39,852 nucleotides of DNA from Thermoanaerobaculia bacterium (GTDB lineage Bacteria; Acidobacteriota; Thermoanaerobaculia; Gp7-AA8): the NCBI GenBank assembly GCA_017883235.1, contig JADGNY010000057.1, positions 1-39,852 on the forward strand, in the 5' to 3' direction. Both the position numbers and the translations under genes were made by a program. Positions 4,052 through 39,852 of this stretch are shown here, piece after piece (within the stretch, counting starts at the first letter, position 1; every line of letters begins with the position of its first letter). Below the pieces are notes generated by a model. The model made no database searches and was not told where the DNA came from. It was given only the letters and a program-made list of their open reading frames with translations.

Positions 4052-4178
4052 GGAGCGCTGGCGTCTCGCCGGCTGGCCCGGGGGCGTCTCGCCCCCGGTC
4101 TTGCAAGACTCGATACATTTGCCTGGTTACCTCAGCGGCGAGACGCCGCCGAGCCAGCCGGCGAGACGCCAGCGCTCC
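4052..4178. repeat. 127-bp palindromic element, GGCGTCTCGCC family A (dppB-dppC gap)
   Basis: Perfect 25-bp terminal inverted repeats, 4052-4076 and 4154-4178 (ending CCAGCGCTCC), enclose about 77 bp holding two smaller palindromes around GGCGTCTCGCC and GGCGAGACGCC and a middle stretch with CGATACATTTGCCTGG. A copy with the same arms and a similar middle lies at 13333-13457. No open reading frame for a transposase is inside, so it resembles a MITE or REP-type element. It interrupts two genes that should be cotranscribed. Confidence 0.9.
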
Positions 4179-5033: not shown

Positions 5034-5037
5034 GAGC

Positions 5038-5208
5038 GGAGAGCGGGCGTCTCGCCTGCTCCCGCCGCGGCGTCTCGCCCGGCGGTGGGTCCGAGGGAAC
5101 AGCAAGGTTGAACCTGGAAACGCCGTCTTTGCCAAACATTTACGTTTGCGTTCGTCCCCCACCGTCGGGCGAGACGCCCGCCGGGAGCAGGCAGGATGCC
5201 CGCTCTCC
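5038..5208. repeat. 171-bp palindromic element, GGCGTCTCGCC family A, long variant
   Basis: It begins GGAGAGCGGGCGTCTCGCCT and ends with the near-complementary GCAGGATGCCCGCTCTCC. Internal arms CGGCGTCTCGCCCGGCGGTG and CACCGTCGGGCGAGACGCC flank a centre with AACATTTACGTTTGCGTTCG. The same internal blocks recur at 18945-19154 and 39519-39852. It fills the gap between the permease stop and the convergent GT22 gene. Confidence 0.85.
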
Positions 5209-5210
5209 GC

Positions 5211-6590
5211 TCAGTGCCGCATGAACACAACCACCGCCCGCGCGGAGCCGTCGCGAAACGTTCGCACGGGCTCATACCCATTCGAGCGCAGGGCAGAGAG
5301 CCGCGAGGGCACATCGAGATCGGTCTCGTATAACGCCACGGCATCGGCGCGCACTTCTTCGAGGTGCTCTGGCGGCGTGCCGACGTCCGACATCGCCATC
5401 CGGTCGCCGAGGTAGAGCTTGTCACCGAAGGCCCAGAGCTGGGAGGCGGCCACCGAGTGGATCGATGGATTCGACGCCATCCACTGCGCCGCCATCACCG
5501 CCGGCTGCGATTTGCGCACGAAGTAGCGGAGCCCGTACACATCCCACAGCATCGACGCCGCCACCAGCGCCACGGCGATCCGGCGGTTGCGCATCGATGC
5601 AAACCCGATCGCCGCGGCGACACAGAGGAACGGAATCATCACCTGCAGATAGCGCAGCTCTTTGTGCTTGATCGCGGAGAAGGCAACGACCGGGATGACG
5701 ACGAACCAGATGGCCCGGCTGCGGCGGCCGAACCAGAGCAGCGGAAGCAATGCCGGCGAACACCACCGCACCAGGTTCGCGACGTACCACCACGGCGCCT
5801 GATACTTCACGCGCGACGCAAAATCAGGGGCGACCAGCGTCAGGTGAGCGAACTTGATGATGCTGGAGAAGGGGGTCCCCCAGGTCAGCCAGTCGTAGAT
5901 GCCGACGGTGAGGAGGATGGAAACGGCGGTGCCGAGGAGGACCTTCCCCGCGGGCACAGACAAGAGTGTCTGTGCCACATTGTTCCTGCTCGTTTGTCCG
6001 GTCCGTGCATCGTGCCGGGGATCAATGTGGCACAGACACTCTTGTCTGTGCCAAAGGGCGATCAGCACCGGTGCCAGAAACACCACCTCGCTGAACCGAT
6101 CCGCGAACGCCACCCCCACCAACGCCCCCGCCACAAACGGCCACCTTTCGACGATCAACGCCGCGGCGACCACGCACACCGCCGCCACCGTCCGCGGATA
6201 GACCGTGCTCCCGAATCCGAGCGGAATCCAATGCGTGGCGAAGAGCAGCGCGGCGACGAAAGCAGCGCTAGCATCGCCACACCAACGCATCGCCAGCCGA
6301 TACACCAGCCAGATCGTCAACCCCGACAACGCGATGAACGGCAGCGACGTCAGGAAGATCGCCATCCGCGTCGACGCCCCGCGCGCCAACCAGACGACCG
6401 GCGCGACGACGGCATCCGGCACGAAGAGATTGCGGACGTCCCACGGCACATACGACAGCCCCCGCGCCCGCCGGAACGCCTCGGACAGCACCTCGACGTC
6501 GTCTCCCGTCAGGAATCCGAGGTAGCGATACGCAAGCCATAGCTGCGCCGCGGCGACGGCGGCGATGAGAGCGGCGAGGGCCTTATTCAT
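5211..6590 (-). CDS. ALG9/PIG-B-like (GT22) membrane mannosyltransferase-type protein with an in-frame repeat insertion
   Basis: Polytopic membrane protein of 459 residues resembling dolichol/polyprenyl-phosphate-sugar-dependent GT22 enzymes. Evidence: a first lumenal loop with acidic residues after span one (GDDVEVLSEAFRRARGL, residues 29-45), alternating hydrophobic spans, and HKELRY at 309-314, matching the HKExRF hallmark of ALG9/PIG-B proteins. In bacteria such enzymes decorate cell-surface glycans; donor and acceptor are unknown. Residues about 181-215 (starting HRQECLCHI, ending AQTLLSVPAGK) are encoded by a 100-bp palindrome inserted in a loop between spans without breaking the frame. 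The start at 6590 follows a second repeat. It is convergent with the permease genes. Confidence 0.75.
   Translation of the reverse strand: MNKALAALIAAVAAAQLWLAYRYLGFLTGDDVEVLSEAFRRARGLSYVPWDVRNLFVPDAVVAPVVWLARGASTRMAIFLTSLPFIALSGLTIWLVYRLAMRWCGDASAAFVAALLFATHWIPLGFGSTVYPRTVAAVCVVAAALIVERWPFVAGALVGVAFADRFSEVVFLAPVLIALWHRQECLCHIDPRHDARTGQTSRNNVAQTLLSVPAGKVLLGTAVSILLTVGIYDWLTWGTPFSSIIKFAHLTLVAPDFASRVKYQAPWWYVANLVRWCSPALLPLLWFGRRSRAIWFVVIPVVAFSAIKHKELRYLQVMIPFLCVAAAIGFASMRNRRIAVALVAASMLWDVYGLRYFVRKSQPAVMAAQWMASNPSIHSVAASQLWAFGDKLYLGDRMAMSDVGTPPEHLEEVRADAVALYETDLDVPSRLSALRSNGYEPVRTFRDGSARAVVVFMRH
5953..6052. repeat. 100-bp palindromic element (GGCACAGACAAGAGTG family C) inside the GT22 gene
   Basis: Perfect 29-bp inverted repeats, 5953-5981 and 6024-6052, built on GGCACAGACAAGAGTGTC and its complement, with a 42-bp centre. 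Each arm is itself a partial palindrome. It lies wholly within the coding region and is read through as about 33 residues. A single arm recurs at 11802-11825 between genes, so the sequence is mobile or recurrent rather than part of the enzyme family. Confidence 0.9.
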
Positions 6591-6601
6591 TGGTTCCCCA
6601 C

Positions 6602-6685
6602 CCTGGGACCGCGGGCGTCCCGCCCGCGCTTGATTCTCGGCATCCTGCTGCTCGTAAGCGCGGGCGAGACGCCCGCGCTCCCAGG
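6602..6685. repeat. 84-bp palindromic element, family B
   Basis: Arms 6602-6630 (CCTGGGACCGCGGGCG, then TCCCGCCCGCGCT) and 6657-6685 (AGCGCGGGCGAGACGCCCGC, then GCTCCCAGG) form a near-perfect 29-bp inverted repeat with a 26-bp loop. A copy with perfect arms is at 37937-38016 and a half copy at 15160-15190. Confidence 0.88.
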
Positions 6686-6692
6686 AAAGTCC

Positions 6693-6780: not shown

Positions 6781-6964
6781 CGAGAGCCCTTCTCCCTCCG
6801 CGGTTTTTTGCGGGGGGAGAAGGTGCCGAAGGCGGATGAGGGGGGCGTTAAGCAGCATGTTTTATTACTCCTCGTGAACTAACGACGCATCCTGCCAAAC
6901 GCCCCCTCATCCGCCTTCGGCACCTTCTCCCCCGCTGAAAAACGCGGGGGAGAAGGACTCTCGA
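6781..6964. repeat. Large palindromic element, family D, downstream of ligA
   Basis: Left arm begins CGAGAGCCCTTCTCC and runs to GGCGGATGAGGGGGGCGTT (6781-6849). Right arm runs from AACGCCCCCTCATCCGCC to GGAGAAGGACTCTCG (6898-6963). The pairing is imperfect, each arm holding a small nested hairpin around CCGC...GCGGGGGG. A one-arm copy lies at 9069-9114. Confidence 0.85.
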
Positions 6965-9972: not shown

Positions 9973-10473
9973 TCACTCCGGTCTTGTGAGATACCGCGAG
10001 CGCTCGACGCTCTTCTCCACGAATCCCATCCCCCGCAGCCTTCCATCAACCTCGGCCAGAAAGTTCCGCCGCCCTTTGATCAGGTTGAGGTTCATGGCCA
10101 CGAAGCGCATGCCGCGCGCGGTGTCGTAGTAGACGATCATCCGGTCGCCGCCGGTCATCTGCTCGGTACCGCGGATCTCCGTCCAGCGCAGCGTGCGCGA
10201 GCGGAACTGATGGAGCGGGCGAAGTGTCAGCGTCTCGTTGTTCATCTCCGCGACGGCGCGCCGCGCGCCGAGCCAGACCTTGAGGCCGCCGATCCAGAGC
10301 GTGCCGATGTAGACCCAGATGGCCCGCTCACCGATCCAGCCGTAGCGGACGGCTGGGTTTGCGACGAGTGCAATGGCGATGGCGGCGGTTACACCCGCTG
10401 CAACGAGCACGATCGACGCGCCGGCGCGCCGCACCCACGGGCGGAACGCGTAACTCTCAGTAACGTCCGGCAT
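9973..10473 (-). CDS. Small two-span membrane protein, PH-domain-like (unknown function)
   Basis: 166 residues. Two membrane segments are visible, about 16-38 (rich in Val/Ala/Ile) and 50-68 (IWVYIGTLWIGGLKVWLG). They are followed by a soluble part of about 95 residues that looks beta-rich (TLTLRPLHQFRSRTLRWTEIRGTEQ, then MIVYYDTARGMRFVAMNLN). That topology is typical of bacterial PH-domain membrane proteins, but no diagnostic motif is present, so this is a resemblance only. Convergent neighbours are absent; the divergent receiver gene starts 55 bp away. Confidence 0.65.
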   Translation of the reverse strand: MPDVTESYAFRPWVRRAGASIVLVAAGVTAAIAIALVANPAVRYGWIGERAIWVYIGTLWIGGLKVWLGARRAVAEMNNETLTLRPLHQFRSRTLRWTEIRGTEQMTGGDRMIVYYDTARGMRFVAMNLNLIKGRRNFLAEVDGRLRGMGFVEKSVERSRYLTRPE

Positions 10474-10512
10474 TGCCTGTCACCGCCCGATGCCGTAGTC
10501 TCTTGCGGCAGC

Positions 10513-10518
10513 TAAACT
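10513..10518 (+). promoter_or_regulatory. TAAACT -10-like hexamer before the receiver gene
   Basis: TAAACT ends 10 nt before the ATG at 10529. It supports that ATG over the later ATG at 10574. Confidence 0.4.
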
Positions 10519-10528
10519 TGAGGCCGGT

Positions 10529-11005
10529 ATGCCTTTCGCAATGGCTATCCGCGGAGAGACGAACGTAGTGACGATGTCCGAGAAGATTGACGGGACCGGC
10601 CGCAGGATTCTGGTCATCGACGACGACCTTGCCATTCGCGTCCTTTTGCAGGCGGTGCTCAAGCGGATGAAGTTCGACGTCGAGCTGGCGGAAGACGGCG
10701 CGGTCGGATTGGAAAAGCTGCGGCATGACGGTACGTACGACCTGATTCTCCTCGATCTGATGATGCCGCGCGTCAACGGCTACGAGTTCATCGAGCAGAT
10801 CGGCCGCGACTATCCCGACCAGCGGCCGCATATCATCGTCTTCACCGCCGCCGGCAAGCGCGGCGTCGAGAAGATCCCACCCGACTCTGTCTGCAACTCC
10901 ATCCTCAAGCCGTTCGATCTCGAGAAATTCATCGAGATGATCGCCGAGTGCCTGCGCGGACCGCACGAGGGGCCCGGCAGTCAACGCGTCCCGCCGCCGG
11001 TCTGA
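10529..11005 (+). CDS. CheY-like single-domain response regulator
   Basis: Receiver domain without an output domain, 158 residues. The acidic pocket is D31/D32/D33 (VIDDDLAIR), the phosphoacceptor D76 (LILLDLMMPRVNGYEF), the switch threonine T106 (VFTAAG) and the conserved lysine K127 (ILKPF). Such proteins usually signal by protein-protein contact, for instance with a histidine kinase or a motility or stress partner; no kinase is nearby. The first 25 residues precede the domain; an alternative ATG at 10574 would trim 15 of them, but the TAAACT hexamer favours 10529. The 3' end overlaps the convergent trmJ-like gene by 25 nt. Confidence 0.92.
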   Translation: MPFAMAIRGETNVVTMSEKIDGTGRRILVIDDDLAIRVLLQAVLKRMKFDVELAEDGAVGLEKLRHDGTYDLILLDLMMPRVNGYEFIEQIGRDYPDQRPHIIVFTAAGKRGVEKIPPDSVCNSILKPFDLEKFIEMIAECLRGPHEGPGSQRVPPPV

Positions 11006-11694
11006 GCGAGCTTCCATTCGATCTGCCTGAGGATGCCGAGGAGGATGGTCGCCTCGCGGCCGTCGAGATTGGCGCGCGCGGAGATAGTGCGCAGGTCGTC
11101 GTAGACGCGGTAGGGATTGTCGCCGTGCAGGAACCCGATCTCGACCAGCAGCGCCTGCACGCGCTCGTGAAGCCGCTCGATCCGCGCCGCCGGCGCCAGT
11201 TCCCGCGCCGCCGGCGCACGCGAGGTGGTCGACACCTCGTAACAGAAGACGCCGACCGACTGCGCCAGATTCATCGTCGGAAAGGCCGGATCGGTCGGGA
11301 TGACCGCCGTGCGCTGGCACTGAATCACCTCTTCCCATGTCAGCCCGCTATCCTCGCGGCCAAAGACGAGGGCCAGCGTCTGCGAGTCATCGAGCGAGGC
11401 GGAGAGTTGCGCCACCTCGACCGGATTCAGGTCGACCGGCGTCGTCCGCTCGCGTGCCGACGTCGTGGCCACGGTCACGTGCGCATCGGCCAGCGCATGA
11501 TGCAGCGCTGGCGCGAAGTGCGCCCTCTCGACCACATCCTCCGCCCCACTGGCCCACCACCCCGCCAGCGGATGCAGCTTCGGATGATCGCCGACGATCC
11601 AGAGATCGCCGAACCCGAAGTTCTTCATCACCCGCGCCGCCGCCCCGACGTTGCCGGCTTCCTTCGGTTCCACGAGAACGATGCGGAGTGGCAT
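10981..11694 (-). CDS. trmJ: RNA 2'-O-methyltransferase, TrmJ-like (SpoU/TrmH superfamily)
   Basis: SAM-dependent ribose methyltransferase, most like TrmJ, which methylates tRNA position 32. The knotted SPOUT fold is visible: motif 1 (PKEAGNVGAAARVMKNFG, residues 10-27), motif 2 (LVFGREDSGLTWEE), motif 3 (IPTDPAFPTMNLAQSVGVFCYEV). The length of 237 is right for TrmJ. The C-terminal helical part (IERLHERVQALLVEIGFL ... LRTISARANLDGREATILLGIL) also matches TrmJ proteins. The 3' end overlaps the receiver gene by 25 nt in convergent orientation. Substrate position is inferred from the family. Confidence 0.88.
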   Translation of the reverse strand: MPLRIVLVEPKEAGNVGAAARVMKNFGFGDLWIVGDHPKLHPLAGWWASGAEDVVERAHFAPALHHALADAHVTVATTSARERTTPVDLNPVEVAQLSASLDDSQTLALVFGREDSGLTWEEVIQCQRTAVIPTDPAFPTMNLAQSVGVFCYEVSTTSRAPAARELAPAARIERLHERVQALLVEIGFLHGDNPYRVYDDLRTISARANLDGREATILLGILRQIEWKLAQTGGGTR

Positions 11695-11801: not shown

Positions 11802-11825
11802 GGCACAGACAAGAGTGTCTGTGCC
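11802..11825. repeat. Single arm of family C palindrome
   Basis: The 24-bp palindrome GGCACAGACAAGAGTG + TCTGTGCC matches the arms found inside the GT22 gene at 5953-6052. It sits in the 217-bp gap between trmJ and the decarboxylase. The same gap also has two direct copies of CGCGTCAGGATGA (near 11883 and 11909) and a GATCTCCGGTCATCCCG block; no gene is seen there. Confidence 0.85.
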
Positions 11826-11911: not shown

Positions 11912-13315
11912 TCAGGATGACCTCCTCAACGCCGCCATCATCCGATCCACATCTCCCCGCTCCGTCCTCGGATTGATCATCGTTACCCGCAGCACGCGCT
12001 GGCCCTTGAGCACCGTCGATGTGATCCAGGCCTGGCCGGAGCGGATCAGTTTCTCGCGCATCGCGGCGTTCGTCTCATCGTCGCTGCGGTGGCGGAAGCA
12101 GAAGATGTTGAACGACGGCACGTGCATCGCCTCGAAGTCGTCCGAGGCCGTCACCTGCTCGTACAGATAGCGCGCCATATCGGTCACATGCTCCATCGCC
12201 TCGACGAACGGACGCGTGCCGGACGTCTGCAGCGTCAGCCACAGTTTGACGGCATCGTTGCGTTTGGAGCACTGGATGGTCATCTCGCCGATGTTGTCGC
12301 CGGCGCGCTCGGCGTTGAAGAGATACGGCGCATCGGCCTCGAACGCGCGTCGCAGCCAGCGCTCCTCGCGCACCAGGATCACGCCGAGGGAGAGCGACAT
12401 CCAGAGCATCTTGTGTGGATCCCAGGCCAGAGAGTCGGCCAGATCGAGACCGTCGACCAGCGGCCGCAGCCGGTCGCTGAGAACGACCGATGCGCCATGC
12501 GCGGCATCGACGTGGAGCCAGGTGTCGTACTTGTCGCGCAGCGCCGCGATGGTCCGGAGATCGTCGAACGCCCCCGTGGCCGTCGATCCCGAAGTCGCCA
12601 CGATGGCCATGACCTCGCCGCCATCGCGAAGCGCGGTTTCGAGCGCTCTCACATCGATCCGGTGCTCAGCATCCGTCGGAATCTTGATCACATCGTCCGA
12701 GGCGATGCCCATGATCGACGCCGCGCGGGCAATGGAGTAGTGGGCATCCGCGGAGCACAGGATCGTTGCGCGTGCGGGAGTCGGGGGTCGGGAGTCGGGG
12801 GTCGGAGAAGGGGGATTCTGCTCCGACTCCCGACCCCCGACCCCCGACTCCCTCTTCTCCATCCACCGCGCCCTCGCCGCCAGCAGCGCCGTCAGATTCG
12901 CCGCCGAGCCGCCGGAGACCGCGGTGCCGAGGGATGTCGATGGATACCCGACGCGATCGGCCAGCCAGCGCACCACCTCCTGCTCGATCACCGTCCCGAT
13001 CGGACTCATCTCGAACACCGCCGTCGACTGATTCAGCGTCGAGATCACCAGATCGCCGATCACCGCGCTCGGAAACGGCGGGCAGACCTGATGCCCCATG
13101 TATGCCGGATGGTGAAGCTGGATGGCGTTCTCCATCAGCAGCCGGATGAGCGCCATCGCCTCCGCGCCGCCGCGGTCATCGATCCGAACCTTCGCCCGCA
13201 GATCGTCCGAGGTCTGCCAATCCACCACCCGCCGCCCCGCGACGTTCTCGACATGATCGAAGAGCGCATCGACAGTGGCGTGCGCCAGCGCGCGCATCTT
13301 GGGGTCGAAAAGCAT
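11912..13315 (-). CDS. Group II PLP-dependent decarboxylase with an in-frame repeat insertion
   Basis: Pyridoxal-phosphate enzyme of the aromatic amino acid/glutamate/tyrosine decarboxylase family, 467 residues. The Schiff-base lysine is K302 in WDPHKML; HVDAAHG at 268-274 holds the aspartate that pairs with the PLP nitrogen; SGGSAANLTAL (about 134-144) binds the phosphate; AYMGHQ near 71 is the substrate-side motif. The substrate cannot be assigned; the family acts on Trp, Tyr, DOPA, Glu and others. Residues about 155-181 (KRESGVGGRESEQ ... SRPPTP) are encoded by a 77-bp palindrome and are foreign to the family. The start is supported by TAGAAT 9 nt upstream; the gene is followed by repeats. 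Confidence 0.9.
   Translation of the reverse strand: MLFDPKMRALAHATVDALFDHVENVAGRRVVDWQTSDDLRAKVRIDDRGGAEAMALIRLLMENAIQLHHPAYMGHQVCPPFPSAVIGDLVISTLNQSTAVFEMSPIGTVIEQEVVRWLADRVGYPSTSLGTAVSGGSAANLTALLAARARWMEKRESGVGGRESEQNPPSPTPDSRPPTPARATILCSADAHYSIARAASIMGIASDDVIKIPTDAEHRIDVRALETALRDGGEVMAIVATSGSTATGAFDDLRTIAALRDKYDTWLHVDAAHGASVVLSDRLRPLVDGLDLADSLAWDPHKMLWMSLSLGVILVREERWLRRAFEADAPYLFNAERAGDNIGEMTIQCSKRNDAVKLWLTLQTSGTRPFVEAMEHVTDMARYLYEQVTASDDFEAMHVPSFNIFCFRHRSDDETNAAMREKLIRSGQAWITSTVLKGQRVLRVTMINPRTERGDVDRMMAALRRSS
12776..12852. repeat. 77-bp palindromic element (GGGAGTCGGGGGTCGG family F) inside the decarboxylase gene
   Basis: The left arm (12776-12808) is built of GAGTCGGGGGTCGG units and the right arm (12821-12852) of the complementary CCGACTCCCGACCCCC units, around GAAGGGGGATTCTG. 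The element is read through in frame. One strand is G-rich with several GGG runs, so the left arm might also form a G-quadruplex. Confidence 0.88.
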
Positions 13316-13332: not shown

Positions 13333-13457
13333 GGAGCGCTGGCGTCTCGCCGGCTGGACCAGAGGCGTCTCGCCTCTGCGTATGTCATACCGATACATTC
13401 GCTTGTATCCGCAGCGGCGAGACGCCGCCGCGCCAGCCGGCGAGACGCCAGCGCTCC
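13333..13457. repeat. 125-bp palindromic element, family A (second copy)
   Basis: The arms 13333-13357 and 13433-13457 are identical to those at 4052-4178 (perfect 25-bp inverted repeats). The centre is also related: AGAGGCGTCTCGCCTCT replaces a GGGGGCG...CCCCC version, and CGATACATTCGCTTG replaces CGATACATTTGCCTGG. One extra arm fragment, TGAGACGCCAGCGCTCC, follows at 13461-13477. Confidence 0.92.
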
Positions 13458-15847: not shown

Positions 15848-16446
15848 TAGATCGCATCCAGATACGGCTGCATAACACGGCTGACGCGACAGATTCTCGC
15901 GAAGCGCGCCAGATCATTTGCACCACCGCGATGGAATCGCGTGAAGTCCTTCAGCGCTTCGACGGCGACATCGATCCCGATCTTGTTGCGGAACTTGAAG
16001 CAGTCGGCAACCGTTTTCGCGGCGCTGTAGACATGAATTCGAACCCCTGCGACGTCGTGTTCTTCAACCCCCTCGTGAAAACTAGCGCCCGAGAGGTGAA
16101 CGATCCTCAGTTTCAGCCCCTTTTGCGTCGGCCGCCATGCCTTCGCGTCGATCGCCATCCAGACTTCGAACGGGTTCTGTGTGGTCAGACCATGAAATCG
16201 GAGCGCCGTCAGAAGACAGATCACCCCGCCCGGAACGAGCCGGGTGGCTTCCGCAAGACTGTGATGCTCGGTCAGAACCGCGCCAGGAAGGCCGTAGATC
16301 CCTCGCCCAACGCGCTCGATGAGTCCCCGCTCGTGGAGCCGTTGAAGCTCGCTACGGGAGATGCCTTTGCTCTCGAGATCCCCCGACCGAACGAGACCCT
16401 TCCGGCGGAGAAGCGATTCGATGCGTTGTGAGTTCGTTCGGGCCAT
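15847..16446 (-). CDS. AbiEi-family antitoxin/transcriptional repressor
   Basis: Antitoxin of the type IV abortive-infection module AbiE; it counteracts the AbiEii toxin without binding it and represses its own promoter. 199 residues: an N-terminal winged helix-turn-helix (about 5-50: LLRRKGLVRSGDLESKGISR ... ERVGRGIYGLPG) followed by the AbiEi antitoxin domain (HHSLAEATRLVPGGVICLLTALRFHGLT; YSAAKTVADCFKFRNKIG). The gene is intact although its toxin partner is not. A 16-bp inverted repeat sits directly before the ATG, as expected for the autoregulatory site. Confidence 0.88.
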   Translation of the reverse strand: MARTNSQRIESLLRRKGLVRSGDLESKGISRSELQRLHERGLIERVGRGIYGLPGAVLTEHHSLAEATRLVPGGVICLLTALRFHGLTTQNPFEVWMAIDAKAWRPTQKGLKLRIVHLSGASFHEGVEEHDVAGVRIHVYSAAKTVADCFKFRNKIGIDVAVEALKDFTRFHRGGANDLARFARICRVSRVMQPYLDAI

Positions 16447-16451
16447 GACCT

Positions 16452-16497
16452 GTTACAAAACCTCGGTACTTTCACACAAACACCGAGGCTTTGCAAC
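16452..16497. promoter_or_regulatory. Inverted repeat, likely AbiEi operator
   Basis: GTTACAAAACCTCGGT (16452-16467) and ACCGAGGCTTTGCAAC (16482-16497) are complementary at 14 of 16 positions with a 14-bp spacer. It begins 6 nt before the abiEi ATG. Characterised AbiEi proteins bind inverted repeats in their own promoter, so this is the natural operator candidate. It also lies within 40 bp of the divergent gene at 16535 and could affect that gene. Confidence 0.7.
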
Positions 16498-16501
16498 ATT
16501 C

Positions 16502-16520
16502 CTCCGCGTGAACCATCCGG
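16502..16520 (+). repeat. 19-bp direct repeat right of the AbiE locus
   Basis: CTCCGCGTGAACCATCCGG; partner of the repeat at 15276-15294 (17 of 19 identical, same orientation). Confidence 0.5.
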
Positions 16521-16522
16521 GG

Positions 16523-16528
16523 TACCAT
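16523..16528 (+). promoter_or_regulatory. TACCAT -10-like hexamer before the repeat protein
   Basis: TACCAT ends 6 nt before the ATG at 16535, consistent with a leaderless mRNA, and favours this start over upstream in-frame codons. Confidence 0.35.
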
Positions 16529-16534
16529 CTAACC

Positions 16535-17776
16535 ATGCGCCGTCTCGCCCTCGCCGCCGCCGCGCTGCTCTTGTCCCATCCGCTGCTCGCCCAGCTCGCG
16601 CAGCAGGGACCGAAACTGACCGGCAGCGGCGCTGTCGGGAACGCGCTTCAGGGACGCTCGGTATCCCTCTCCGCGGACGGCCACACCGCCATCGTCGGAG
16701 GCATCCTCGACAACGGAGGCGTTGGCGCCGCCTGGGTCTGGACAAGAACCGGCGACAGTTGGACGCAGCAAGGGAACAAACTTACCGGCTTCGCCTCCGT
16801 CGGAAACGCCAATCAAGGCAACTCCGTCTCCCTCTCCGGCGACGGCAACACCGCCATCGTCGGAGGGCCGATGGACAACGGCGGCGCCGGTGCCGCCTGG
16901 GTCTGGACGCGGAGCGGCGGCGTGTGGAGTCAGCAGGGCAACAAGCTGGTCGGCTCCGGCTCCGCCGGCAACGCCCAACAAGGCTACGCGGTGGCTCTCT
17001 CCGCGGACGGCAACACCGCCATCGTCGGAGGCCACATGGATGCCAGCTCCGCCGGCGGCGCGGCATGGGTCTGGACGCGGAGCGGCGGCGTATGGACCCA
17101 GCAGGGGAACAAGCTGGTCGGCTCCGGCTCCGCCGGCAGCAGCGGCCGGCAGGGCGATTCCGTCTCCCTCTCCGGCGACGGCAACACCGCCATCATCGGT
17201 GGCTTCGGCGACAACGCCGCCAACGGCGCCGCCTGGATCTGGACGCGGAGCGGCGGCCTCTGGACGCAGCAGGGCAATAAGCTGGTCGGCACCGGCGCCG
17301 TCTCCGGCGTCGGGAACGCCTGGCAGGGGTGGTCGGTGGCCCTCTCCGGCGACGGCAACACCGCCATCATCGGAGCGATCGCCGACAACAACAACACCGG
17401 CGCCATCTGGATCTGGACGAGGAACGGCGCCCTCTGGACCCAGCAGTCCCCCAAGCTCACCGCCTCCGGCAACGTCGGTGCCGCCCTCCTCGGCTATTCC
17501 GTCGCCCTCTCCGCCGACGGCAACATCGCCCTCGCCGGTGGCTCCGGCGGCGATGGCGCCACCTGGGTCTGGACGAGGAACGCAGGAGTCTGGACGCAGT
17601 CCGGCGACAAGCTCACCGGCACCGGCGCCGTCGGAAGCGCCCAACAAGGCACCTCTGTCTCCCTCTCCGCCACCGCCGACACCGCCATCACCGGCGGCCC
17701 CCTCGACAAAGGCTTCGCCGGCGCGATCTGGGTCTTCGACGCCATCCCGCCAAGGCGTCACGCCGTCAGGCGGTGA
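16535..17776 (+). CDS. Secreted repeat protein, probable beta-propeller
   Basis: 413 residues from the ATG at 16535. The N-terminal 20 (MRRLALAAAALLLSHPLLAQ) form a signal peptide. The rest is seven tandem units of about 55 residues, each with a strand pattern such as QGxSVSLSGDGNTAIVGG, then GAAWVWTRSGG and WTQQGNKLVGSG. Seven blade-like units of this size suggest a closed seven-bladed beta-propeller with an outer strand missing from the last unit. The DNA units are also very similar, so the array could expand or contract. Similar repeats are found in secreted proteins of unknown role; no catalytic residues are evident. Further in-frame codons upstream to 16361 overlap the antitoxin gene and are not expected to be used. 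Confidence 0.8.
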   Translation: MRRLALAAAALLLSHPLLAQLAQQGPKLTGSGAVGNALQGRSVSLSADGHTAIVGGILDNGGVGAAWVWTRTGDSWTQQGNKLTGFASVGNANQGNSVSLSGDGNTAIVGGPMDNGGAGAAWVWTRSGGVWSQQGNKLVGSGSAGNAQQGYAVALSADGNTAIVGGHMDASSAGGAAWVWTRSGGVWTQQGNKLVGSGSAGSSGRQGDSVSLSGDGNTAIIGGFGDNAANGAAWIWTRSGGLWTQQGNKLVGTGAVSGVGNAWQGWSVALSGDGNTAIIGAIADNNNTGAIWIWTRNGALWTQQSPKLTASGNVGAALLGYSVALSADGNIALAGGSGGDGATWVWTRNAGVWTQSGDKLTGTGAVGSAQQGTSVSLSATADTAITGGPLDKGFAGAIWVFDAIPPRRHAVRR

Positions 17777-18874: not shown

Positions 18875-18944
18875 TCATCGGATCGCTGGGCCGATACGGC
18901 TGAAGCCGTGTTACGAGTTCGATGCAAAGAGCGTCCCCCTGACC

Positions 18945-19154
18945 GGAGAGCAGGCGTCCCGCCTGCTCCCGACGCGGCGTCTCGCCCGGCGGTGGTCCCG
19001 CCGCAAGCAGGGTTGAACCTCAAAAACGCGGATGGATAGGCCGCCGCTCTACCCAACAGTTGCGCTCGACTCCGTCCCCACCGCCGGGCGAGACCCTTCG
19101 ACTCCGCTCAGGGCAGGCTGCCGCGGCGGGAGCAGGCGCGGACGCCCGCTCTCC
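18945..19154. repeat. 210-bp palindromic element, family A long variant, with nested insert
   Basis: Starts GGAGAGCAGGCGTCCCGCCT and ends CGCCCGCTCTCC. Internal blocks CGGCGTCTCGCCCGGCGGTG and CCCACCGCCGGGCGAGAC match 5038-5208. A short CCTTCGACTCCGCTCAGGG palindrome (19095-19115) breaks the right arm. The 18875-19346 gap holds this and a second fragment (19185-19250, CGTCCTCGCCCGACGGTGG); no gene is visible in it. Confidence 0.8.
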
Positions 19155-19346: not shown

Positions 19347-19516
19347 GACTCCCAGAGTCCATCAACTGCCTCGCGGAGTGTGTTAACTGCCTCCAGGAGT
19401 GTGTTAACGGACTCCGGGAGTGTATTAACTGACTCCGGGAGTGTATTAACTGACTCCGGGAGTGTGTTAACTGACTCCGGGAGTGTATTAACTGACTCCG
19501 AGACATCCCGTTAACT
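19347..19516. repeat. Tandem array 1, 21-bp period, about 8 units
   Basis: Seven 21-bp units from 19347 plus a last degenerate one (19494-19516). The consensus is GACTCCGGGAGT followed by GTATTAACT. Each unit has the palindrome ACTCCGGGAGT and a GTTAAC or ATTAAC. The first units vary (GACTCCCAGAGT, GCCTCGCGGAGT, GCCTCCAGGAGT). The period is a multiple of three, so stop-free frames appear on both strands, but these look like by-products. Array 3 at 28643 has the same GACTCC[C/G]GGAGT core. Confidence 0.92.
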
Positions 19517-27719: not shown

Positions 27720-28165
27720 GGTGCATCGTTTCGATCCTCGCGTAATTCGTCTTGACCCTCGCGCGCTTCGTTTTGGTCCTCGCGCGCTTCGTTTTGACCC
27801 TCGCGCGCTTCGTTTTGACCCTCGCGTGCTTCGTTTCGACCCTCGCGCGCTTCGTTTTGACCCTCGCGCGTGCTTCGTTTCGACCCTCGCGTGCTTCGTT
27901 TTGACCCTCGCGCGCTTCGTTTTGACCCTTCGCGTGCTTCGTTTTGACCCTCGCGTGCTTCGTTTCGACCCTCGCGCGTGCTTCATTTCGATGCTCGCGC
28001 GCTTCGTTTTGACCCTCGCGCGCTTCGTTTCGACCCTCGCGTGCTTCGTTCTGATGCTCGCGTGCTTCGTTTTGACCCTCGCGAGCTTCATTTCGATGCT
28101 CGGGTGCTTCGTTTTGACCCTCGGGTGCTTCACTTTGATGCTCGCGTGGTCAGTTGTTGACCCTC
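27720..28165. repeat. Tandem array 2, 21-bp period, about 21 units
   Basis: Units of about 21 bp with consensus GCGCTTCGTTTTGACCCTCG plus one C. I count about 21 from 27720, with variants such as GTGCTTCGTTTCGACC and GAGCTTCATTTCGATG. Two units are preceded by an extra GC and one has an extra T, shifting the frame, yet both strands stay stop-free. It runs from about 155 bp upstream of hsdM to near the start of the next gene's 3' end and is the longest of the three arrays. Confidence 0.93.
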
Positions 28166-28185
28166 GGCGGCGCGTTGCGCAGCGG

Positions 28186-28605: not shown

Positions 28606-28642
28606 GTGGGCCTCCCCCTGGTGAGCTCGGAGTTTACCAATG

Positions 28643-28889
28643 GACTCGTGGAGTCCACGATTGGACTCCCGGAGTCCACGATCAGACTCCCGGAGTCCAC
28701 GATTGGACTCCCGGAGTCAACGATCAGACTCCCGGAGTCAACGATCAGACTCCCGGAGTCAACGATCAGACTCCCGGAGTCAACGATCAGACTCCCGGGG
28801 TCAACGATCAGACTCCCGGAGTCAACGATCAGACTCCCGGGGTCAACGATCAGACTCCCGGAGTCAACGATCAGACTCCCGGGGTCCGC
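28643..28889. repeat. Tandem array 3, 21-bp period, 12 units
   Basis: Twelve units from 28643, the last partial (from 28874). The consensus is GACTCCCGGAGT followed by CAACGATCA. Variants are GACTCGTGGAGT (unit 1), CACGATTG tails in early units, and GGGGT in units 8, 10 and 12. The GACTCC[C/G]GGAGT core is shared with array 1; the 9-bp tail differs. In one frame it encodes a heptapeptide (PESTIRL), but no gene start supports coding. Confidence 0.93.
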
Positions 28890-37910: not shown

Positions 37911-37936
37911 GTAACGGCGCCTGACATCGACTCCCT

Positions 37937-38016
37937 CCTGGGACCGCGGGCGTCTCGCCCGCGCTGTCGGGCAGGATGCTGCCAAGAAGCGCGGGCGAGA
38001 CGCCCGCGGTCCCAGG
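37937..38016. repeat. 80-bp palindromic element, family B, perfect arms
   Basis: A perfect 29-bp inverted repeat: CCTGGGACCGCGGGCGTCTC plus GCCCGCGCT (37937-37965) and its complement (37988-38016), around a 22-bp centre with GTCGGGCAGGATGCTGCC. Related copies are at 6602-6685 and 15160-15190. It stands between the GNAT gene and tRNA-Gln. Confidence 0.93.
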
Positions 38017-38086
38017 GGGCGCCAGCGCTCTGTCGGCGCGGAATGACAAATCCGCGAATTCGTTTAGGATTCCGCGTCGTCCGTAC

Positions 38087-39513: not shown

Positions 39514-39518
39514 GGCAC

Positions 39519-39852
39519 GGAGAGCAGGCATCCGCGCCTGCTCCCGGCGGGCGTCTCGCCCGACGGTGGGGACGAAGGCAAACGTAACTGTTGGGCAAGA
39601 ACGCCGGCGCCCCCATTCGCGCTTCGGGTTCAACGGCGCGGAGAGCAGGCATCCTGCCTGCTCCCGGCGTGGCGTCTCGCCCGACGGTGGGGACGAACGC
39701 GAACGTAAATGTCGGGCAAAAACGACGGTGCCCCGATTCGCGTTTTCAAGTTCGACACTGCTGTTGGCGCGCGGTGCAAGAACGCGGATGGGCACAGGCC
39801 GCCGTTGTTGGCCAGACATTTACGTTCTCCTTCGTCCCCCACCGTCGGGCGA
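39519..39852. repeat. Cluster of family A long elements, tandem and inverted
   Basis: After the amt stop two direct copies follow (39519 to about 39635 and 39637 to about 39760), each with GGAGAGCAGGCATCC, TCTCGCCCGACGGTGGGGAC and an AACGTAA(A)T block. A third, inverted copy (from about 39780) has AACGCGGATGGGC, ACATTTACGTTCTCCTTCG and CCCACCGTCGGGCGA, and is cut by the window end. The arms and ACATTTACGTT centre match 5038-5208. No gene is visible in these 339 bp. Confidence 0.85.

Follow-up and report, generated by a model that had tools for sequence, protein, structure and literature searches.

A gene for a GT22-like membrane enzyme of a Thermoanaerobaculia bacterium very probably carries, in frame within one of its loops, a REPIN that belongs to a population numbering about 200 REP units, is tolerated where it sits and leaves the gene functional. 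The insert was recognized in a window of 39,852 nucleotides, i.e., the whole stretch of contig JADGNY010000057.1 that we analysed. In that in-frame intragenic REPs have already been described (as the Rickettsia RPE and by Di Nocera 2013), these elements are of a known kind and form a new REPIN population. Two of their quantitative features are worth following: a bias toward one reading frame, and a single loop that has served as a landing site for three palindrome families.

Results

A REP doublet inside a GT22 gene

Two head-to-head 24-bp near-palindromes make up the inverted repeat at window positions 5953-6052 (Table 1). The 34-bp arms of this repeat are 97% complementary, with 32 bp in between, and each arm holds one of the near-palindromes, such that the element consists of two small hairpins. 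The palindrome given in the preliminary description is confirmed at this position, but its perfect arms measure 30 bp instead of 29 bp; the second copy of one arm, placed between genes at 11802, is indeed there as an exact 24-mer. Within the window the 24-mer occurs three times, as against no occurrence in 100 shuffles.

Table 1. Positions of the REP units and of the gene that contains the doublet (window coordinates)
Feature	Position	Strand	Remarks
GT22-like (Alg9-like mannosyltransferase, PF03901) membrane protein gene	5211..6590	-	REPIN corresponds to residues 181-213
REP unit 1 (GGCACAGACAAGAGTGTCTGTGCC)	5953..5976	+	GTGG foot points toward the spacer
Spacer of the REP doublet	5977..6028	.	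52 bp; begins ACATTG, finishes CAATGT
REP unit 2, inverted	6029..6052	-	forms with unit 1 a 100-bp REPIN with 30-bp perfect arms
Single REP unit, same family	11802..11825	+	between minus-strand ORFs 10457-11338 and 11912-13315; exact 24-mer match

The product of the surrounding ORF is 459 residues long and matches PF03901 (Alg9-like, GT22; E = 1.2e-07). Its frame is open across the element, which reads as HRQECLCHIDPRHDARTGQTSRNNVAQTLLSVP, and hydrophobic segments lie on either side of the insert loop (residues ~160-178 and ~217-235). Thus, the absence of a stop or frameshift and the location in a loop between membrane spans, both proposed earlier, are borne out, and the in-frame reading stands with a slightly shorter extent (residues 181-213 rather than 181-215).

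If this loop were native to the enzyme and the palindrome a coincidence, homologous residues at 181-215 should occur in all orthologues. This is not what we find: orthologues from other genera of the family align to residues 1-180 and 214-458 with only about five residues between, and several relatives have GT22 orthologues without any insert. The one similarity at this position, in the same-genus genome G002, takes the form of similar REP-encoded residues, in that a REP doublet occupies this loop of its orthologue too; the spacer differs and is longer (106 bp, versus 52 bp in the window's genome, G000), with no clear similarity between the two. Given also that the DNA is a dispersed repeat with 207 copies, a native loop is scarcely credible.

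The element is 100 bp long, which is not a multiple of three, and no clean target duplication is visible at the insert. The frame is nevertheless kept, with a net gain of about 31 codons over insert-free orthologues as taken from the protein alignment, a figure which suggests that a few target bases were replaced.

A further possibility is that the insert broke the gene, either because the hairpin ends expression or because the two halves are now separate products or a decaying pseudogene. The RNA hairpin of the insert is very stable (-72.6 kcal/mol) and could slow or stop expression. However, the frame is open throughout, and dN/dS is low on both sides of the insert (0.23 before and 0.18 after, in a comparison of G000 with G002, both of which bear inserts), i.e., both halves are under equal purifying selection. 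The PurH and QueA genes, which carry REPs as well (see below), likewise have similar dN/dS on the two sides of their inserts. Together with the retention of frame at nearly all comparable sites, these values make a broken gene very unlikely; judged by its sequence, the GT22 locus still has the character of a gene. A structure predicted for the window protein from two sequences had a mean pLDDT of 41, too low to interpret.

The REP population and its cognate RAYT

With up to two mismatches allowed, the 24-mer unit is present in 207 copies in the 6.92-Mb genome G000 (reversed control, 0), where about 6e-8 exact copies are expected by chance. The palindrome at 5953-6052 is, in other words, an inserted, dispersed genomic repeat. 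Genomes of the same genus contain 50 (G001) and 79 (G002) copies and other genera of the family from 0 to 114; those genomes of the class that belong to other orders and families yielded none. Most exact matches in named genomes fall in MAGs of Thermoanaerobaculia and other Acidobacteria. Of the REP clusters in G000, 106 were sampled; 66 of them are doublets and only 7 were called intragenic although most of a bacterial genome is coding, i.e., the elements are mainly extragenic; the sampled sites represent most, but not all, copies. Several G000 contigs end close to a REP (e.g., C20:21, C33:76, C57:76, C158:57). This may mean that the assembly breaks at REP palindromes and that the true copy numbers are higher than counted.

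Read from its foot, the REP unit has the sequence (A)TGTGGCACAGACACTCTTGTCTGTGC, in which GTGG is the foot and the hairpin comes next, and it is near invariant in four genomes; across 177 G000 units the foot is kept at 92-100% per base. Canonical REPs have a GT[AG]G foot (PMC6006769), and REPINs are inverted REP doublets (PMC3116915). There are nine Y1_Tnp genes in G000. One intact RAYT, at G000:C71 (L037/L140), has the HuH motif HVHL and the Y---NP motif YVCNNP and is flanked by three REPs of the 24-mer family, which occur on both sides of it. Because a GTGG-footed REP occurs together with an intact RAYT gene flanked by the same REP, we classify the element as a REPIN, and its high copy number, frequent inverted doublets and mainly extragenic location agree with this.

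The preliminary description had viewed the insert as an independent counterpart of the Rickettsia RPE. A dispersed palindrome read in frame, with an RPE-comparable effect, is what we observe; the class must be revised to that of REPINs, given the GT[AG]G foot and the cognate RAYT, and in-frame intragenic REPs were known already.

In-frame REPs in other genes

Over five genome sets, 23 of 255 REP clusters are intragenic by a flank-based hexamer score, the calls being made from this coding score and Pfam on MAG contigs. Pfam domains are present at 21 of the 23 sites (in this tally the G002 orthologue of the window gene was counted via the window protein, without a separate scan). Locus L155 and several long ORFs spanning a REP were dropped, either because another frame scored better on at least one side or because the site was not spanned by a Pfam domain.

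The genes that bear REPs include those for PurH, PFOR, QueA, an HI0933-like flavoprotein, RmlD, a GT2 enzyme, an aromatic amino acid lyase, DNA polymerase III alpha (DnaE), a class C penicillin-binding protein (PBP1C), an Lhr helicase and a P-type ATPase. Relatives of PurH and QueA present the empty site, and the match to the solved structures (3zzm for PurH, 1vky for QueA) is interrupted at the insert point, with few residues between blocks. In the G002 QueA gene (L197) a short in-frame REP remnant (TTGTCTGTGCC) lies where G000 has the full insert, as if an older in-frame REPIN had been mostly deleted with the frame kept.

Retention and bias of the reading frame

If inserts were free of constraint, one third would be expected to keep the frame. 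Among sites whose two flanks are open and code on the same strand, 19 of 20 keep the frame (p about 1e-8, for sites that are not fully independent, some being old and common to the genus). The reading frame within the insert is also biased: the first REP is read as AQTxxSVP at 15 of 22 sites (p = 9e-4, with the G002 orthologue left out), and this holds for single REPs (6/8; p = 0.02) and for the Pfam-supported sites (15/20; p = 1.7e-4). Selection is visible, then, as the retention of in-frame inserts and as the bias to one reading frame.

The bias is not due to stops, since in intergenic copies the three frames are open about equally often (392, 383 and 373 of 464). The two disfavoured frames give peptides that contain cysteine (HRQECLCH and TDKSVCA), whereas the AQTxxSVP peptide is Cys-free, and the bias is most simply explained by selection on what is encoded. 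The transposase could instead prefer target sites in a certain position relative to codons. Yet the bias is the same in singles and doublets and across several genomes, and it is the Cys-containing peptides that are encoded by the disfavoured frames; a target preference is a possible but less likely source of the frame bias.

The REP unit has zero stops in all frames, and the element had been suggested to be under selection for stop-free frames. In whole doublets, 75% of frames are open versus 70% after shuffling of the spacers; because of this small difference and the shared ancestry of the copies, we do not make that claim.

Three palindrome families in one loop

Other elements occupy the same GT22 loop in other genomes, each of them in frame: in G001 a 180-bp palindrome with CTGTCATCCTGAGC ends; in G011, which belongs to another genus, a 254-bp palindrome of the same TGTCATCCTGAGC family; and in G015 a doublet of small GGCGGGCTGAAGCCCGCC-type hairpins. 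These families are dispersed, with 195, 435 and 52 copies in G001, G011 and G015, respectively, and the family locations listed include the GT22 sites (G001 C30:23687 and 23852; G015 C456:1300). Three unrelated palindrome families have entered one GT22 loop.

Such recurrence in several lineages, along with the biased reading frame, might suggest that the insert has been recruited to a role, such as that of an adaptive loop or a regulatory RNA hairpin, rather than merely tolerated. But the insert sequences are unrelated between families, several relatives have no insert, and tolerance combined with the abundance of the elements accounts for the recurrence; we regard recruitment as unlikely.

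Discussion

The best-known coding palindromes are those of Rickettsia, whose life is obligately intracellular and whose genome is reduced. The present data add some 20 in-frame cases in large genomes of apparently free-living soil bacteria, with a REPIN-RAYT system attached. They also form a natural series for measuring the filter that acts on insertions, with in-frame cases at 19 to 1, one preferred frame, and one loop with three element families, and make an old question directly testable: do mobile palindromes feed protein evolution, or are they merely tolerated?

The RAYT at G000:C71, a Y1/HuH transposase with REPs of this family on both sides of its gene, probably mobilises the REPIN and would copy and insert it via single-stranded DNA; the nine Y1 genes in the genome weigh against this step. 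In the GT22 enzyme, one copy would have gone into a short loop that joins two membrane spans. Since the REP is without stops in any frame and the net insertion is in frame, the enzyme would have gained about 31 residues and its gene would have remained functional. Frameshifting insertions appear to be purged by selection, as the in-frame excess indicates, and those into structured parts presumably are as well. What remains would be passengers that keep the frame in tolerant loops and are mostly read as the Cys-free AQTxxSVP, and the GT22 loop seems tolerant enough to have admitted two further palindrome families in related species. That the REP population is itself adapted to genes, with a stop-free sequence, a benign Cys-free linker (AQTxxSVP), steady loop extensions and preferred landing loops such as that of GT22, is a doubtful proposition.

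The REPINs and RAYT of Pseudomonas fluorescens SBW25 (PMC3116915; PMC6006769) resemble ours in several respects: they are hairpins with a GT[AG]G foot, occur in many copies and as inverted doublets some 100 bp long, have variants specific to a species, and come with a RAYT that sits between the same REPs. What differs is that a fraction of the copies here lies in frame within conserved genes, and the host, an uncultured Thermoanaerobaculia-like member of the Acidobacteriota. Intragenic GTAG/CGTC REPs are known in several phyla, their doublets encoding 20-30 residues that were suggested to sit in loops (PMC3733652); the cases in Opitutus terrae and Thauera, like ours, are doublets inside ORFs, replication and repair genes included, and in one instance, Xanthomonas recB, different REPs occupy about the same site. 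Our data differ from these in the bias of the reading frame, in the quantification of the in-frame excess and in the loop that has been hit by three palindrome families.

The Rickettsia RPE (PMC2229807, PMC10969869) are also dispersed palindromes, of ~100-150 bp, read in frame in conserved proteins, and an insert-bearing Gmk was shown to be expressed and active. In-frame reading within conserved protein genes is common to both systems, but our hosts are Thermoanaerobaculia/Acidobacteria MAGs rather than Rickettsia, and our elements are GTGG-footed REPs linked to a RAYT; the two are set apart on these features. Neither a reading-frame bias nor a loop with multiple families was found in the literature on RPEs and intragenic REPs, most subscription papers being outside our reach.

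Other repeats in the window

At least four palindrome families occur in the window. A second dispersed family (GGAGAGC..GGCGTCTCGCC) forms inverted doublets at 4052-4178, 5034-5093, 13333-13457, 18941-19000 and 39515-39745, and one of its copies is immediately downstream of the GT22 gene. Inverted repeats of the GGGACCGCGGGCGTCCCGCCCGCGC and GGAGAAGGTGCCGAAGGCGGATGAGGGGG types are located at 6597-6690 and 6803-6943, adjoining the GT22 gene, and at 37934-38019. Long arrays of 21-bp tandem repeats extend over 27721-28166 (21 copies), 28628-28887 (12 copies) and 19364-19500 (6.5 copies); the array at 19.4 kb is an inverted relative of that at 28.6 kb, and its unit is partly palindromic (GACTCCGGGAGTC). 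Lastly, a 165-bp tandem repeat of about six copies (16657-17689) lies inside ORF 16361-17776.
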